A DNA stretch of 64,000 bases from positions 62,001 through 126,000 of the forward strand of contig CANCFT010000003.1 of assembly GCA_947377285.1 (NCBI GenBank), given 5' to 3'. Below are positions 42,052 through 60,871 of this stretch, one piece after another; within the stretch, counting starts at the first letter, position 1; each line of letters begins with the position of its first letter. A program made the translations under genes and the position numbers. Source of the stretch: Bacteriovoracaceae bacterium. Lineage in GTDB: Bacteria; Bdellovibrionota; Bacteriovoracia; Bacteriovoracales; Bacteriovoracaceae. Below the pieces are notes generated by a model. That model did not search any database, was not told the origin of the DNA, and saw nothing but the letters and a program-made list of their open reading frames with translations.

Positions 42052-44196
42052 TTAGAGTTGCTCAATTAAATATGAATTTTGAGAACAAAATGATTTTAAA
42101 AACTCAGTTGAGCCGTCAGTATATTCTAATTTAAGATTAAACAATCCCTCTTTATCTCCAACTATAAATATTTTTTCCGCCAACTCGCTTTCTTTTGTAA
42201 AGTTTCCGTCTTTATCTAAAAATGAAGTTTCTATAAACATTTCGCCGCTTTGATTTTTACCATTGGCCTTTAATTCTTTTATGTCCTTAGAAAGGTTAAT
42301 TTGAACTATGCACTGCTCTTTTAAAGAGCTTACTTGGTTCATTTCTAAGACTTTTGCAATAAACTCATTGCCAGGAATTTCTAAATCTTTTTCTGTAGAT
42401 ATGCCAACAAAAACACTATCTTTTAAATGCTTAAACTCTAAATATTTTCTCATTCCACTAGGCATAGTAGGAATTTTTACTTCATACGCATTTAATGCTT
42501 TTTTCTTGGCATTTATTTTTGTGTTTAAAAAGTTTATCAATTCGCCATCTATATTTAATTCTTTTTTCTTAGCTCCAAAAAGATTTCTTGTAGTAAGAGT
42601 ATAGGTTTCACGGTTGCCACCAACAAACTCTTCATCTTCGAAATACATTTCGCCTTCACCAACATAAATTATTTTTTGTGCTACTTCGTGATTAGCAAGT
42701 AGGTATCTGACCATTATGTTTCCGCTTTTAACTCCCGCATACATAATGTATTTAGCTTTTAAAATATTATTAGTATTTTTAAATCCAGCGTCAAAATAAA
42801 ACCTTTGATCAAACTTTGTATCAATTTCCGTATCAACAATATTTGAATTTAAAGTTAGAGTAATCAAGTTTCCTTCAACGTTTATCCCTTTTTTCTCTAA
42901 AAACTTTTGAATACCCTCTTCGTTTATAAGTGGGATTTCCAAACTAGATTTACCATCTAAGTTTAATTCTACTCTTGTTGGAATCATCCCTTGTGACTGA
43001 ACGACTCCAGTTTGAGTATTCATTGCTCCACTAAGTGAGTATCCAAACGAAATTTCTCCAGAACCATTATCATCGCTTCTTTCTGATCTGTCATAATCAG
43101 GAACAAATTCAAAAGTTCTTGCCTGGCGAAGTTTTTGAGTATTCAAATTGACTTCAATTCCTTTTAAAATGAAAGCTGATTCATTTGTTGGACTATTAGT
43201 TGTAAATGCTTCTGATTCAGTAAAAGCTTCAACTGCTTCCTTTTTAGTCATTGCTTTTTTAGGAGCTGCGTACTCATAACTAACATTATCATTTGAATCG
43301 AGATCAATTTCTTGATTATCTATCAGTGTTGTATTTTTTGATTCATTTTGAGTACTCACTTCTGGAAATATTCTTTGAGTATTCATTTTATTAATTTTCT
43401 TTATTGGTGCATTTCCCATTTCTCTGCTAATTACTTTTTGTACTGCTTTAGAGATTGGTCTTTCATATAGTTTTTGATCAATTGTTTGTTTTACGGCCGC
43501 TGGTTGGGCATTTTCTTTGTAATCAAACATAACCATTTCTTCATCATCAACTTTTCTCTCTGTTGATGGCTGAGTAGTCGTCACTGCATCAGCGACTGTT
43601 TCTTCAGTTGTTGTACTTGCCTGGGCAGTTTCAACAGAGTCTTCTATATCTAGATTTTTTATTTCTGCTAGTTTTTCTTTAACTGGAGATCCATTAAAAT
43701 CCAGGTCTATTTTTAAATTTTCAAATTGTGAGTAACCAATTTTCTCAATGTTAAATGAATAGATATTAATTAAGTTGCTATTGTTTATTTCAAATGAAGA
43801 CAGGTCTTCATTACTTACAATATTTTCAACTTTCACTTCTATAGGTAAATTTAATTCTTTTGTTTCTGTAACAATTATTTCTTTTTTTAATTTAATTATC
43901 TGTTTATGTGGAACTAAACCATAACGAGTGTGTTTTATTTTTTTTCCAATCTCAGCGTCAATTGCAGTAATTATCTGAGATGAAATTTGTTCATCATTTA
44001 GTTCATCTTTAACTTGAGATGAATTTTGATTTTTCTCTAATGAAACAGTATTTAAATTTTGAGCCAAATTAGTAAAGGCAGAAAAATTTATTGTCTCAAA
44101 TTGTGATTGATTGCTATTTATAGAATATGCTTTCGACAGCGTTAACGCCGTTATTAAAATAATAGAAGTTGTAGCGAGTGCTTTTTTTATGATCAT
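42052..44196 (-). CDS. Large exported protein of unknown function
   Basis: 714 aa with a signal peptide (ATTSIILITALTLSKAYS). Residues about 50-330 are acidic, Thr/Glu/Lys-rich and disordered-looking (TTEETVADAVTTTQPSTE). From about 340 on the sequence is beta-rich with Ig- or carboxypeptidase-regulatory-like strands (DSVFVGISTEKDLEIPGNEF). Three Cys are at the C-terminal end. No family recognised. The double palindrome at 44262-44298 lies in its promoter region, suggesting tight control. Confidence 0.65.
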   Translation of the reverse strand: MIIKKALATTSIILITALTLSKAYSINSNQSQFETINFSAFTNLAQNLNTVSLEKNQNSSQVKDELNDEQISSQIITAIDAEIGKKIKHTRYGLVPHKQIIKLKKEIIVTETKELNLPIEVKVENIVSNEDLSSFEINNSNLINIYSFNIEKIGYSQFENLKIDLDFNGSPVKEKLAEIKNLDIEDSVETAQASTTTEETVADAVTTTQPSTERKVDDEEMVMFDYKENAQPAAVKQTIDQKLYERPISKAVQKVISREMGNAPIKKINKMNTQRIFPEVSTQNESKNTTLIDNQEIDLDSNDNVSYEYAAPKKAMTKKEAVEAFTESEAFTTNSPTNESAFILKGIEVNLNTQKLRQARTFEFVPDYDRSERSDDNGSGEISFGYSLSGAMNTQTGVVQSQGMIPTRVELNLDGKSSLEIPLINEEGIQKFLEKKGINVEGNLITLTLNSNIVDTEIDTKFDQRFYFDAGFKNTNNILKAKYIMYAGVKSGNIMVRYLLANHEVAQKIIYVGEGEMYFEDEEFVGGNRETYTLTTRNLFGAKKKELNIDGELINFLNTKINAKKKALNAYEVKIPTMPSGMRKYLEFKHLKDSVFVGISTEKDLEIPGNEFIAKVLEMNQVSSLKEQCIVQINLSKDIKELKANGKNQSGEMFIETSFLDKDGNFTKESELAEKIFIVGDKEGLFNLKLEYTDGSTEFLKSFCSQNSYLIEQL

Positions 44197-50350: not shown

Positions 50351-50695
50351 TTAAGACGTTTTCTTATCGCGCATTTTTGTTGTACCGTGAAAGATTACGC
50401 CCTCTTCCACAATGAGACTCGGCGTTGTAATGATACCTTCAAATCTTGCGGGTTTTAATATTTCAACGCGTGAACTTGCCTTAATATTGCCTTTTACTGA
50501 ACCGGCTATAATTATAATATTTGCGTTAATATCAGCATTGATGATGGCGCCTTCAGAAATGACCACTGTGTCGTTTGAAAATACACTACCATTAACAATG
50601 CCAGCTATTCTGGCCGTTCCATTGAATGATAAGTTTCCTTCAAATTTACAACCCTCTTCAATGATGGCAGAAACTTCGCCGCGTCTTCTCTTCAT
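50351..50695 (-). CDS. Bactofilin
   Basis: 114 aa. Right-handed beta-helix core with short repeating turns (GTARIAGIVNGSVFSND, ADINANIIIIAGSVKGNIKASSRVEI), as in BacA/BacM; short basic N-terminus. Self-assembling cytoskeletal filament acting at the membrane in shape or chromosome positioning. Lies between parB and the atp operon; in myxobacteria bactofilins also sit near par genes. AAGGA precedes the ATG. Confidence 0.93.
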   Translation of the reverse strand: MKRRRGEVSAIIEEGCKFEGNLSFNGTARIAGIVNGSVFSNDTVVISEGAIINADINANIIIIAGSVKGNIKASSRVEILKPARFEGIITTPSLIVEEGVIFHGTTKMRDKKTS

Positions 50696-50785
50696 GGTTC
50701 ATCCTTGATTTCGATTTTGGTTCTATAGGGGCAGTCATTTTTAAAGACTCTCTACTAACCTAGCTCTTGTCTTTCATAGACTATT

Positions 50786-51730
50786 CTATTTCGATAATAG
50801 AAATTCGTAAATATCGTTAAATTCTGCTTCATTGCTATATTTTAAAACAATATGGCCGGATCCATTTTTTCCTGAATTTATTCCAAAGTGGTATCCAGTT
50901 TTATGTTCTAGAGTCTTTCTAAATTGATCAAGTTTTTCATCAAAAAATGGATTTTTTCGAGTAACTTTCTCTTTAACAGGCTTTTTAGCCTTAATTTCAT
51001 TTTCTAAATCACGTACAGACCAATTACTAGATACCGCCAAATTAGCGAGTCTAATAGCATCCTCACGCTCTTTAACAGCTGCTAAAATTTTAGCGTGTCC
51101 CAAGCTCAACATTTCTTTTTGCAATAGATCGATTACTGGACGAGGTAGATTAAGTATTCTTAAAAAGTTCGCAACACTTGATCTTTCTTTTCCTAATTTT
51201 TTAGCAACATCTTCCTGAGTTAATTTGTATTCATTCATTAGTTGATAGTAAGCCAACGCCTCTTCAACACAGTTTAAATCAGATCGTTGAACGTTTTCGA
51301 TGATTGCCATAATCATCTTTTCTCTTTCAGTCGCTCTTTTTACGACAACAGGCACTTGCCCTAGACCTGCTTTTTTTGCAGCTCTTAATCTTCTTTCTCC
51401 TGCGATCAGTTCGTATTGTCCATTTTCCATTTCTGCTACAATTAGCGGTTGAATAATTCCGTTTTCTTTAATTGATTCTGAAAGTTCTTCTAGGTCTTTT
51501 TCTTTAAAAATTTTTCTAGGCTGATTGGGATTTGTTTTAATAGATGTTACATCAATTAAAAGGGGCGTATTTTCGTAGCGAATTTCTATTTCTTTTTCGT
51601 GCTCTACTTCTTCACCTTGGTCGTTCTGATTACCAAATTTATTATGATAAGTTTGTTGTACAACTGATTGAGGAGTGGACTCCTGTAAAAGTGAAGCGAT
51701 CCCTTTTCCCAATGCTAATTTCTTCGCCAT
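50786..51730 (-). CDS. parB: Chromosome partition protein ParB
   Basis: 314 aa. N-terminal basic start (ALGKGIASLL), the CTPase/DNA motif LIAGERRLRAAKKAG, NVQRSDLNCVEEALAY, the HTH LTQEDVAKKLGKERSSVANFLRIL and a C-terminal dimerisation domain. It binds parS and loads SMC. Follows parA by 24 bases. Two parS-like sites lie within 3.5 kb. Confidence 0.98.
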   Translation of the reverse strand: MAKKLALGKGIASLLQESTPQSVVQQTYHNKFGNQNDQGEEVEHEKEIEIRYENTPLLIDVTSIKTNPNQPRKIFKEKDLEELSESIKENGIIQPLIVAEMENGQYELIAGERRLRAAKKAGLGQVPVVVKRATEREKMIMAIIENVQRSDLNCVEEALAYYQLMNEYKLTQEDVAKKLGKERSSVANFLRILNLPRPVIDLLQKEMLSLGHAKILAAVKEREDAIRLANLAVSSNWSVRDLENEIKAKKPVKEKVTRKNPFFDEKLDQFRKTLEHKTGYHFGINSGKNGSGHIVLKYSNEAEFNDIYEFLLSK

Positions 51731-51754
51731 ATAAACTCCGTTACTTTTTTATTT

Positions 51755-52645
51755 TTAAGGATGCATTCCGTTCGTATTGATAGATTCAATATTGGGAATT
51801 AAATTTAGCAAAACTTCTTCAGGTAAGACTTCTGCATTATTTTTAACTTCATTTGAATTTTCTTTTGACTTACCCTTGAAGCGCTCTTTTAAAATGAGTT
51901 CTTTTGCTAAAGCCAAATAAGCCTCGCTACCTTTTGATTCGATATCATAAAGAATAATTGGTTTACCAAATGAAGGACATTCCGCTAGCTTTACATTTCT
52001 CGGTATTATAGTTTCAAAAACAACATCGCCAAAATGTGTTTTAATTTCGTTGGCAACTTGTTTATGTAGACCCGAACGAGAATCATACATAGTTAACAAA
52101 ATTCCATCTAATTCTAAATCTGGATTTAGAGAAGATCTAATGAGTTTTACTGTATTTAATAATTGAGCTAAACCTTCCATTGCTAAAAATTCTGTTTGCA
52201 TTGGAACAATATAAGAATGAGCTGCATTTAATGCATTCACAGTTAACAGTCCCAAAGATGGCGGGCAATCGATAATGATATAATCATAATCTTTTTCAAT
52301 TGCCTTAAAGGCATTTTTTAATTTTGATTCGCGAGCAAACAAACTCACCAATTCTATTTCTGCCCCTGATAAATTATTATCTGACGGACAAATATCAAAA
52401 TATGGAAGTTCTGATTCATAAATAGCTTCTTTTAATCCTATTTGACCAATTAGTGCATGGTAAATATTTTTACCAGCAAATTTATCTTTAGAGAGTCCAA
52501 TACTAATACTTCCGTTACCCTGTGGATCCAGGTCTATTAGTAGAGTCTTTTTCTCGGCTACTGCTAGACACGCTGCCAAATTTACAGAAGAAGTTGTTTT
52601 ACCAACGCCACCCTTTTGGTTCATCATCGCAATAATTTTAGCCAT
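51755..52645 (-). CDS. parA: Chromosome partition ATPase ParA (Soj)
   Basis: 296 aa. Deviant Walker A MNQKGGVGKTTSSVNLAA, LLIDLDPQGNGS, IIDCPPSLGLLTVNAL. A tail of about 40 charged residues (GKSKENSNEVKNNAEVLPEE) extends the usual ParA and is poorly conserved in kind. Moves the origin with ParB. Precedes parB, follows rsmG by 52 bases. Confidence 0.98.
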   Translation of the reverse strand: MAKIIAMMNQKGGVGKTTSSVNLAACLAVAEKKTLLIDLDPQGNGSISIGLSKDKFAGKNIYHALIGQIGLKEAIYESELPYFDICPSDNNLSGAEIELVSLFARESKLKNAFKAIEKDYDYIIIDCPPSLGLLTVNALNAAHSYIVPMQTEFLAMEGLAQLLNTVKLIRSSLNPDLELDGILLTMYDSRSGLHKQVANEIKTHFGDVVFETIIPRNVKLAECPSFGKPIILYDIESKGSEAYLALAKELILKERFKGKSKENSNEVKNNAEVLPEEVLLNLIPNIESINTNGMHP

Positions 52646-52697: not shown

Positions 52698-53336
52698 TTA
52701 AAGTAACTCAGAAAATTTATTAATTTTTTCCGTCTGCATTGTTCCACGTAGAACTTTTCTGTTTTTGAAACCTAATAGCAGTCGTCCCTCTGTTCCAGAC
52801 ACATCATAAGATTTCTCTTCAATTAATTCCCAATTACTCTCAAGCATATCTTCTATATCTTCTAATTCATAAAAATTTGGGCCTTTATAAAAAAAGACAT
52901 AGAGAGTTTTATTGGTTCTTAACAAAGGAAGATATTCTGAAACTTTGCCCACTGCTTTAAAAGTTAAAACTGCATCAACATCAAAATCAATAGTCTCTAA
53001 TCTCTGATGCTTTAATTTGACATTTTTTAATCCTAAACTATTTGCAATTTTTTGTACCGCTTGTACTTTTTTTGCTCTGGCGTCAAAACCAATAAATTTT
53101 TTATCAGGATTTGCGAAAGCTAATGGAAGAATGGGAAATCCACCACCAAAACCAACATCAACTAAAAGCTTTGTCGACTCCAGTGCATTTTTAAAAACCT
53201 TGCTTTCGGTTAGTGGAAGAATTGAATCAATGATTTGTTTTTGATAAAACTCTTCAGGACTTTCAATTCTTGTTAAATTAATACCGGCAAATTCACCAGT
53301 TAATAGATTTAGGTAGTTTTGGCTAAATTCTTTCAT
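52698..53336 (-). CDS. rsmG: 16S rRNA (guanine-527-N7)-methyltransferase
   Basis: 212 aa. The SAM-binding loop VDVGFGGGFPILPLAFANPDKKFIGFDARAKK is clear, and the general GidB fold follows. It methylates G527 of 16S rRNA. Its ATG overlaps the mnmG stop by one base. The parS-like site at 52740 lies inside its last codons (VLRGTM). Confidence 0.95.
   Translation of the reverse strand: MKEFSQNYLNLLTGEFAGINLTRIESPEEFYQKQIIDSILPLTESKVFKNALESTKLLVDVGFGGGFPILPLAFANPDKKFIGFDARAKKVQAVQKIANSLGLKNVKLKHQRLETIDFDVDAVLTFKAVGKVSEYLPLLRTNKTLYVFFYKGPNFYELEDIEDMLESNWELIEEKSYDVSGTEGRLLLGFKNRKVLRGTMQTEKINKFSELL
52740..52754. promoter_or_regulatory. parS-like site inside rsmG
   Basis: TGTTCCACGTAGAAC, one base from a perfect parS palindrome of the GTTCCACGTGGAAC type. 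Located 1 kb from parB, in the coding sequence of rsmG. Same asymmetric core as the site at 55192. Confidence 0.75.
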
Positions 53337-55191: not shown

Positions 55192-55207
55192 TGTTCCACG
55201 TAGAACA
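55192..55207. promoter_or_regulatory. parS-like site in the mnmG leader
   Basis: TGTTCCACGTAGAACA, identical to the other site in its 14-base core and one base from a perfect palindrome. It covers the ribosome binding region of mnmG, so ParB spreading here could touch mnmG expression. Confidence 0.8.
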
Positions 55208-55250: not shown

Positions 55251-56807
55251 CTATTTCCCTATGCAAAAATTAGAAAATATTGAATTTAATACATCATCAG
55301 GTGAGACAACGCCTATTAATTCACTTAGGTAATAACCTAAGATATTAACCTCAGACGATATAATCGCCACATCATCTAAGATGCTGATTTCACATGTTAA
55401 CCCAAGTGCTTTTAAGTGAATTTTATTTAATACCGACCTATGGCGCTCAAGTAAAATCGGTGAATTAGAAGTGTGATTTTTAAATTTTTGAGACAGTAAT
55501 TTCTTAACGGCCGGTTCTATAGGACCAGAATTTTGAACTGGTTCTATAGGACCAGAATTTTGAACTGGTTCTATAAGACCAAGATTATGAACTGGTTCTA
55601 TAGGACCAAGATTATGAACTGGTTCTATAGGACCAAGATTTTGAACTGGTTCTATAGGACCAAGATTTTGAAGTGGTTCTATAGGACCAAGATTTTGAAC
55701 TGGTTCTATAGAACCACTTTTAAAACTCGCTGCAATTATATTTTCAAAAGATAAATTTGATAAATCTAAATGTAAAATTTCATTGGTAAAATCTGATTTA
55801 TCAGCATGAGAAATAATTAACAAATCAAAATGAATTCCTTGAAGTTTTTTAAGATAAAGAGGATTTGATTCAAATGGATTAATAATTAAAATTTTAAAAA
55901 AAGCTTTTTTAATGAGATCAAAAGCTCTTTCAATTCCAATATTTTCTATGGGATCAAGAGAATCACGAATACCGGCCGTATCAATTAAATGATAATTGGT
56001 CCTATCAATTTGAATGACTTCTGAAACATAATCTCTTGTCGTACCAGCTATTGGAGAAACAATGGATCTATTGTGTTTAACTAATAAATTAAAAAGAGAG
56101 CTCTTTCCCGCATTAGTTTGACCTACTAGGACCAAGTCGGGAGATAGTAGTGAAGAAATACTCCCTTGAGTACGCGAATGCAGAGAATCTAAAATAGTAA
56201 AAAACAAATCAAAAGAACTTTTGAGCAAATTCTTAGTTTCGCTCTCCCCTACATCTTCTGAAAAATCAATTGAAATTTCTACAGCACTTTTTAATTTTAA
56301 ATAACTTTCATAGAGTCTGAGATATTGAGAATGAAGATCACCTTGTAAAACATCAAGCCCCTGAGAAAGCATTAAATTTGAATTTGCATTTAATAGCATA
56401 TCCAAACCTTCAACTTGAGATAAGGTCAATTTCTTATTTTTTAATGCCCGAAAAGTAAATTCTCCAGGATGAGCTGAACGAAAATCAGCTTTTTCAATAA
56501 AAAGTTCTAAAATGTTTTGAATATTGAGTAAATTACCGTGTACAGAAATTTCTAAAACGTTTTCCCCTGTATAACTCTCTCCTTTGGGAAAAAATACCAT
56601 CAAACAATTATCCAAAACTAAATTATTGTTAAGTATATTTGTGAGATGAGAATATCGAGGTTTAATTTTTAATAGCGAATAAGAGAAAAAAGGCTGAAGA
56701 GATATTAATGAGTCGAAACCAGAGAGCCTAATCAATGCTATTGCAGTATTGGAAAGAGATCCAGTACTGCATGCAATGATTGGGTGATCGTCAGTATAAA
56801 AATTCAT
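55251..56807 (-). CDS. mnmE: tRNA modification GTPase MnmE with an expanded in-frame repeat
   Basis: 518 aa, about 65 residues longer than usual. N-terminal folate-binding domain (IIACSTGSLSNTAIALIRLSG), then the G domain: G1 VGQTNAGKSSLFN, G2 GTTRDYVSE, G3 DTAGIRDS. The G4 region reads IISHADKSD, a degenerate NKxD (SHAD or DKSD), and G5 is AASFKSG. Right after G5 come seven to eight copies of GPIEPVQNL-like units (about residues 364-431) and then the normal C-terminal helix with the conserved CIGK end (FSNFCIGK). Functional by its ends, unusual in the middle. Follows yidC by 16 bases with no jag gene between. Confidence 0.95.
   Translation of the reverse strand: MNFYTDDHPIIACSTGSLSNTAIALIRLSGFDSLISLQPFFSYSLLKIKPRYSHLTNILNNNLVLDNCLMVFFPKGESYTGENVLEISVHGNLLNIQNILELFIEKADFRSAHPGEFTFRALKNKKLTLSQVEGLDMLLNANSNLMLSQGLDVLQGDLHSQYLRLYESYLKLKSAVEISIDFSEDVGESETKNLLKSSFDLFFTILDSLHSRTQGSISSLLSPDLVLVGQTNAGKSSLFNLLVKHNRSIVSPIAGTTRDYVSEVIQIDRTNYHLIDTAGIRDSLDPIENIGIERAFDLIKKAFFKILIINPFESNPLYLKKLQGIHFDLLIISHADKSDFTNEILHLDLSNLSFENIIAASFKSGSIEPVQNLGPIEPLQNLGPIEPVQNLGPIEPVHNLGPIEPVHNLGLIEPVQNSGPIEPVQNSGPIEPAVKKLLSQKFKNHTSNSPILLERHRSVLNKIHLKALGLTCEISILDDVAIISSEVNILGYYLSELIGVVSPDDVLNSIFSNFCIGK
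55513..55716 (-). repeat. 27-bp tandem repeat array (minisatellite) within mnmE
   Basis: Seven full 27-base units starting GGTTCTATA(G/A)GACCA on the plus strand, at 55513, 55540, 55567, 55594, 55621, 55648 and 55675, and a partial eighth at 55702. Units differ by one to three bases. 27 is a multiple of three, so copy-number change keeps the frame. On the coding strand each unit is G-(P/L)-I-E-P-(V/L)-(Q/H)-N-(L/S). The opposite-strand ORF at 55533 is its shadow. Confidence 0.97.
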
Positions 56808-59296: not shown

Positions 59297-60871
59297 ATGG
59301 CGCAAGATTTTCCATTTGATCATTTTCTTAAACTTAACAATAAAAACACATCACAAAATTCAATGGATTCATTTAACAACCAATTTAGAGACGAAAATAG
59401 TGCTAATCTTGAAAATCTAAACTCTCAAGCATTTCAAGATGAAGAGCTAAGTATCATAAATCAGGAGATTTTGAACCATTTAAAAACGGTTGTACCTGAA
59501 TTAAAATTTAAAACATATTTCGACAATAATCTTGAGCTAAAAAGCATCAATGAAACCATCGTACATTTTGAAGTCAAAACAGCCTTTATTAAAAAATCAG
59601 TAGAACTCTACTTAGAAGAAATTACCAAAGCTCTTTATAATGTCTTAGGAACTCAATATGAGGTCCAAATAATTAGTAAAGACCAAACAGATTACCAACT
59701 TGGTACAAGCCAAATAAACAAAAGTGCACAATCCTCAGGCAAATCATTTAACGATGTGAAATTCACTTTGGACCTAACGCCAACAAGAGACGATCTAGCC
59801 TCAAAAGCTCATGCTCAATATATTGAACACATGAATCCAAATCAATCTGGAATTATTATTGATAGATCAAAAACTTTTGATAACTTTATTGTCGGACCAA
59901 CAAATAATATGGCCCAAGCAGCTTCTAAAGCCGTAGCACAAAATCCAGGTAAAAATGGAAAGTATCCATCTTTATATATACATAGCAACTCAGGCCTTGG
60001 AAAAACTCACCTGCTTCACTCTGTAGCCAATGAAATAAATGAAAAACATCCTGGTCTAACAATTTGTCTAATTACTGCACGCGACTTTATGGATGAAATG
60101 ATTACTTTGATGAAAAACAATAGAATTAATGAATTCGTCAAAAAATACACTGAAAAAGTCGACGTCCTGATGATTGACGATATTCATGAGTTAAAAAATA
60201 AGGAAGGAACTCAAGACCAATTTTTTCATGTCTTTAATGAAATGCACAATAAAGGCAAACAACTTATTTTCACCTCTGATAAAAGACCAAAAGAAATCGA
60301 TGGAATTTCTGAAAGAATAAAAACTAGATTGCAATGGGGCTTGGTTGTAGACATTCAACCACCTGATCTAGAGACAAGAATAGCCATTTTAAGAAGAAAA
60401 ATGGAAGGACTTGACCTTTATGTCACAGAAGATGTTTTAACCTTGATAGCATCTAGAATTAAAACAAATATAAGAGAACTGGAAGGCTCACTGGTTAGGC
60501 TTAAAGCAGTAAGTGAGTTAATGAACGTCGAAATAGAAATAGATCTAGTTAGAGAGCAGCTAATGCTGCCTAATAGTGAGTCTGAAAAAGCTATCACTAT
60601 TGAACATGTGGCAAAAGCTACTGCTCAATATTTTAGAATTCCATTAGCAGACTTGAAATCAAAAGGAAGAAGCCAAGATATTACCAAAGCACGCCATATT
60701 GCGATGTACTTAGCTAGAAAAATAGCCAATGCCAAGCAACAAGAAATTGGTAGTTTTTTTGGTGGCAGGGATCATTCTTCAGTTATACATGCCGTAAGCA
60801 CAATCGCTGAAAAAGTAAAATTAGATTCGGCCCTATCTAAAGATATTAATTCAATCGAATCAAATCTCTAA
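59297..60871 (+). CDS. dnaA: Chromosomal replication initiator DnaA
   Basis: 524 aa; GGAG eight bases before the ATG. The first 50 residues are a polar, Asn-rich extension before domain I (NQEILNHLKTVVPELKFKTYFDN), so it is longer than E. coli DnaA. AAA+ core: Walker A SNSGLGKTHLLHSVANEI, Walker B VDVLMIDDIHELKNKEGTQDQFFHVFN, and sensor ELEGSLVRL. C-terminal DNA-binding helix with TKARHIAMYLARKI and the DHSSVIHA signature. Initiates replication at the adjacent oriC. Confidence 0.98.
   Translation: MAQDFPFDHFLKLNNKNTSQNSMDSFNNQFRDENSANLENLNSQAFQDEELSIINQEILNHLKTVVPELKFKTYFDNNLELKSINETIVHFEVKTAFIKKSVELYLEEITKALYNVLGTQYEVQIISKDQTDYQLGTSQINKSAQSSGKSFNDVKFTLDLTPTRDDLASKAHAQYIEHMNPNQSGIIIDRSKTFDNFIVGPTNNMAQAASKAVAQNPGKNGKYPSLYIHSNSGLGKTHLLHSVANEINEKHPGLTICLITARDFMDEMITLMKNNRINEFVKKYTEKVDVLMIDDIHELKNKEGTQDQFFHVFNEMHNKGKQLIFTSDKRPKEIDGISERIKTRLQWGLVVDIQPPDLETRIAILRRKMEGLDLYVTEDVLTLIASRIKTNIRELEGSLVRLKAVSELMNVEIEIDLVREQLMLPNSESEKAITIEHVAKATAQYFRIPLADLKSKGRSQDITKARHIAMYLARKIANAKQQEIGSFFGGRDHSSVIHAVSTIAEKVKLDSALSKDINSIESNL

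Follow-up and report, generated by a model that had tools for sequence, protein, structure and literature searches.

The window, the whole stretch of 64,000 nucleotides that was analysed, comes from a Bacteriovoracaceae genome assembly of 3.45 Mb and carries mnmE, the gene of the tRNA modification GTPase, at 55251-56807 on the minus strand. Its 518-aa product has the domains of an MnmE protein (Pfam TrmE_N, the G domain MMR_HSR1 and MnmE_helical) as well as the C-terminal C[IL]GK motif, the terminus reading FCIGK. Tandem Repeats Finder reported inside this gene a 27-bp array at 55513-55716 (7.6 copies, 94% matches, score 345), which is by far the top-scoring tandem array of the window. The array is in frame, translates to GSIEPVQNL-GPIEPLQNL-...-GPIEPAVKKLL and is inserted after the last strand of the G domain and before the C-terminal helix. 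Placement by the open reading frame and the Pfam domains thus bears out an earlier sequence-only reading of this DNA, which had put an in-frame 27-bp array after the MnmE G domain.

Each 27-bp unit holds one 16-bp near-palindrome, TGGTYCTATAGRACCA. A site scan, the repeat search and family-wide conservation together define eight such sites within 55512-55716, starting at 55512, 55539, 55566, 55593, 55620, 55647, 55674 and 55701. In an AlphaFold model of MnmE built from 26 sequences (mean pLDDT 77.7), pLDDT falls to ~29 at residues 364-426, and the prediction for the array-bearing stretch, residues ~362-428, is a disordered loop.

The array lies ~3.6 kb from dnaA (59297-60871, plus strand; its ORF translation was read by eye), which is followed by dnaN and recF and marks the replication-origin side. 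Family profiles identified the ordinary chromosomal pair parB (50786-51730) and parA (51755-52645), both on the minus strand, and the ParB of this pair matches Pfam HTH_ParB with 113.6 bits. Downstream of parB is a bactofilin gene (50351-50695, minus strand; Pfam PF04519); in B. bacteriovorus, the bactofilin gene bd3904 is the same neighbour of parB (PMC10547168). In the window, a further copy of the element, TGGTTCTATAGGGGCA, lies at 50718-50733 between these two genes, and this gap is a second cluster position, occupied in most of the relatives examined (29 sites) and the commonest of the intergenic positions. The ordinary parAB pair (50786-52645) is hence flanked by two element clusters, and the classical parS sits between them. 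From the site scan, a parS-like site with one mismatch to parS, TGTTCCACGTAGAACA, lies between mnmE and mnmG at 55192-55207, a position conserved in relatives, and a weaker one, TGTTCCACGTAGAACT, at 52740-52755.

Half-sites, reading frames and codons of the 16-bp element

In an alignment of MnmE from the relatives, pentapeptides of the form G[PS][IM][EG][PA] occur at one place, in variable number and with unrelated spacers. Their common DNA form, T GGT YCT ATR GRR SCA, is a near-palindrome, and the five common pentapeptides (GPIEP, GSIGP, GPIGP, GSIEP and GPMGA) are translations of palindrome variants: the DNA of GPIGP and of GSIEP is perfectly palindromic, and that of GPIEP, read on the other strand, is exactly that of GSIGP. 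The half-site is TGGTYCTA, sometimes TGCCCCYA. Over the family-wide site set the half-sites pair non-randomly, with 108 mixed TGGTCCTA/TGGTTCTA sites against 21 + 17 of the like pairs, counts that are inflated by tandem duplication. In the same set, TGCCCCTA favours TGGTTCTA, TGCCCCCA favours TGGTCCTA, and there are almost no pairs of TGCCCC with TGCCCC.

We observed that the synonymous positions of the motif are nearly invariant: 166 of 171 codons are the consensus codon against 58.7 expected from codon use elsewhere in mnmE (z=18), in a test that took one motif per genome and ignored kinship among the genomes, whose MnmE proteins are ~40-70% identical to that of the window. The same 16-mer also occurs in mnmG, parB, yidC, dnaA and rsmG, and in these genes it is read in three frames; other frames give RSYRTKK (in mnmG) and AVLWDQL. 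About 70 copies fall outside the matched gene segments. In one genome (L052), mnmE contains no site, but five occur a short way downstream of it; at L032, MnmE has no repeats and the sites are elsewhere in the origin region. In genome G024, too, the sites are placed elsewhere in the region. The frozen wobble bases, the intergenic and other-frame copies and locus L052 therefore point to a DNA element hosted in the disordered MnmE loop, a place that tolerates in-frame inserts. We are all but certain that the mnmE array is an element at the level of DNA, of which the GPIEP-type peptide is a by-product.

These observations bear directly on the suggestion that the GPIEP-type repeats are selected as protein, acting on MnmE dimerisation, on the GTPase switch or on the contact with MnmG. 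The conserved position next to the G domain would suit such a role, as would the single reading frame within mnmE, from which only 1 of 214 sites departs; however, the frozen wobble bases, the intergenic and other-frame copies, the repeat-free MnmE of L052 and L032 with sites elsewhere in the region, and the predicted disorder of the loop all speak against it, and we regard it as very improbable. The frame bias itself arises because one alternative frame usually has TAG and the other gives W/Y-rich peptides. An effect of the insert on the nucleotide switch of MnmE, as first proposed for this array, accordingly fares poorly, the element being also intergenic and in other frames, and the MnmE of L052 lacking the array.

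Palindromes of this kind can form short hairpins (GGTCC-TATA-GGACC), and most copies lie along the mnmE-mnmG-rsmG-parA-parB gene run, as would be expected of an RNA element that acts through hairpins in the mRNA. Yet within mnmE the form that would leave a C-A mismatch outnumbers the one with a G-U pair (GPIEP, 61; GSIGP, 33), intergenic copies occur in both orientations, and some copies are on the dnaA/recF side. We therefore give an RNA-level function next to no credence.

Distribution of the element in the Bacteriovoracaceae and beyond

The self-complementary pattern TGSYYCYATRGRRSCA was found in 96 of 97 genomes of the family, at 1-19 copies each; among 194 genomes from the phylum's other families, 23 had it, at 1-2 copies. 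Chance expectation is ~0.2 copies per genome by a hand estimate, and a reversed-pattern control was near zero. The element is thus conserved in the Bacteriovoracaceae and, beyond the family, at background level. In the genus g5 (G017, G217, G261 and G263), each genome has 0-2 perfect copies, and G017 also shows degenerate variants of the element in the origin region. The maximum of 19 copies belongs to G006, an assembly with at least two versions of the region: its contigs C45, C109 and C140 (L009, L136) have differing mnmE/parB regions with differing arrays, which suggests that close strains are mixed or that the region is duplicated.

In the complete or near-complete assemblies listed, nearly all copies are within the origin region (G015, 9/9; G023, 11/11), whether in mnmE, in the parB-bactofilin gap or nearby, with an occasional far copy such as G009:C6:466030. 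Genome-wide scatter, the mark of dispersed palindromic elements such as RPE, is hence not seen, the copies being almost only origin-side. A motif-free search for palindromes at 11 of the family's origin loci recovered TGGTCCTA, TGGTTCTA and parS, TGTTCCAC, in 11/11. In the Bdellovibrionaceae-type family f6, the same kind of search found no second palindrome like the element; 12 origin loci gave essentially only parS-type halves. A gene for a long secreted-type protein lies downstream of the atp genes in the window (42052-44196); at the corresponding place, G015 has a copy of the element inside the gene (L071:3374), and G033 and G030 have more near that place. Operators of a transcription factor were considered and rejected by inspection, many copies being at the 3' ends of genes and not at promoters.

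The array of the window was at first taken to be mainly a minisatellite that had grown by slippage, with an assembly artefact as a further possibility. The repeats of the window are genuinely in tandem and have near-identical spacers, as do those of G007, G010, G022 and L047, and the copy number in the window is the outcome of local tandem duplication of site and spacer; to this extent, growth by duplication in the lineage of the window was correctly anticipated. So was variation in copy number among relatives, which ranges from 0 to ~11 in mnmE. Length invariance of MnmE, which had been assumed, breaks down in the Bacteriovoracaceae, where the open frames of the relatives run from ~444 to 602 aa. 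Duplication explains the copy number in the window reasonably well, though not the element: most relatives keep only the 16-bp palindrome, with unrelated spacers, and 96 of the family's 97 genomes, assembled independently of one another, contain it. Both a neutral minisatellite and an artefact of assembly are thus extremely unlikely.

We found no description of the element in a literature search by the literal motif, which returned only chance partial-string matches as judged from titles and abstracts, and nothing relevant was found on Bacteriovorax and ParB. As far as searched, the origin-side site array is new. An element so nearly universal in its family, and specific to it, escaped notice because it looks like a peptide repeat within a housekeeping enzyme.

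ParB2 as candidate binder

The layout of the element is that of ParB and Noc sites, a 16-bp palindrome with the half-site TGGTYCTA compared with TGTTYCAC in parS. Like chromosomal parS (TGTTYCACGTGRAACA), the element occurs in several copies near the origin and in the same gene neighbourhood, and the half-sites match at 5/8 positions, among them position 5 with its choice of C or T and position 6 with C. The element nevertheless departs from the parS consensus, true parS coexists with it at the same loci, and it differs from parS in standing in dense arrays inside a coding gene, without an adjoining parAB pair of its own.

A second, hitherto undescribed ParB (ParB2) has a full-length match in 91 of the 97 genomes of the family; none of the 194 others has one, their best matches (E ~1e-18) being ordinary ParB. 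Four of the six family genomes without a full-length match (G229, G243, G258 and G263) have a completeness of 85% or less, and in the other two, G121 and G291, the locus is cut at contig ends, G121 having a ParA2 fragment at the contig edge. In the genus g5, ParB2 was found in three of the four genomes despite their few perfect copies of the element, which speaks against ParB2 as binder. As many proteins besides ParB2 are specific to the family, the co-occurrence of ParB2 with the element amounts in effect to one evolutionary event. ParA2 adjoins ParB2 in 21/21 loci examined (for example G000:C26, L067:567-2262). ParB2 has the N-terminal CTP-binding domain, with 59.7 bits for PF02195 and 84.4 bits for TIGR00180, both over cut-off, and the motifs ICGERRFRA and SENSSREEL (GERRxRA, ENxxRxxL) are conserved in the 21 loci.

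The helix-turn-helix of ParB2 is not matched by Pfam HTH_ParB, and its mode of DNA recognition is therefore uncertain. Aligned by hand through Noc, in Caulobacter ParB numbering, ParB2 has K173, R178, S179 or C179, and K184; it is thus changed (R173K, N178R, A184K) at positions known for DNA contact and specificity in ParB and Noc (PMC7383237). In a hand count, TGCCCC half-sites accompany the C179 types of ParB2 more often (33 of 82 against 25 of 216), a trend that phylogeny alone may explain.

Noc, a ParB paralogue whose helix-turn-helix is altered and which has a 16-bp palindrome of its own (PMC7383237), was closest to ParB2 in a PDB sequence search. ParB2 is not a Noc equivalog, scoring 89.7 bits against the NCBIfam cut-off of 315 for TIGR04285. 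In Bacillus, NBS occur all over the chromosome and no parA belongs to noc, whereas the Bacteriovoracaceae sites are limited to the origin region and ParB2 is paired with a ParA. The RacA/ram sites of Bacillus subtilis, which anchor the origin at the pole, are likewise family-restricted inverted repeats near the origin, but the element has another sequence and belongs to another lineage.

Sites of ParB proteins usually lie near their own parAB genes. Where an assembly has both on one contig, parAB2 is roughly 300-400 kb from the origin, and a palindrome scan for a local centromere beside parAB2 found no common palindrome in 21 loci, and neither the element nor parS nearby. The distance from parAB2 to the sites lends some weight to a different binder of the same array. 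Such a binder could be a RacA-type origin anchor, a nucleoid protein, a factor that regulates replication, or the ordinary ParB if it has a second specificity. The DNA-level evidence fits such a binder equally well. Against this, the ordinary ParB retains parS-type contact residues in its helix-turn-helix and its parS sites are conserved; a third ParB-like protein was rejected as binder, since none turned up in several site-bearing genomes; and the ParB-like site layout together with an orphan parAB2 favours ParB2. On balance, we consider another binder a serious though less likely alternative, and judging from these sequence comparisons we lean, somewhat beyond even chances, towards binding of the element by ParB2.

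A possible second ParABS system on the chromosome

The sites mark the origin/parABS region of the Bacteriovoracaceae chromosome and are putative nucleation sites of ParB2. ParB2 would load at the element clusters and spread over the origin region, and ParA2/ParB2 could then position or anchor the origin. Alternatively, ParA2/ParB2 might modulate, limit or gate the classical ParB at the parS between the clusters. In attack-phase B. bacteriovorus, DNA beside parS blocks the formation of ParB foci via an unknown lineage-specific factor (PMC10547168), which resembles the present case in that related predators and local DNA next to parS are concerned. The family f6 does not have the element beyond background, and its origin loci share only parS, so that the Bdellovibrio parallel is only an analogy.

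We put forward, tentatively and with less than even confidence, that the Bacteriovoracaceae chromosome has a second ParABS system besides the classical one, the ParA2/ParB2 centromere being hidden in the coding sequence of mnmE and beside parB, where it flanks parS and may control origin positioning or parS accessibility in the predatory cycle. If ParB2 binds the element, ParB-type DNA recognition would have a third natural specificity in addition to parS and NBS, and two ParAB systems per chromosome would be a new arrangement for handling the origin in predatory bacteria. Control of the second system over access to parS, a question left by the Bdellovibrio work (PMC10547168), thereby becomes testable.
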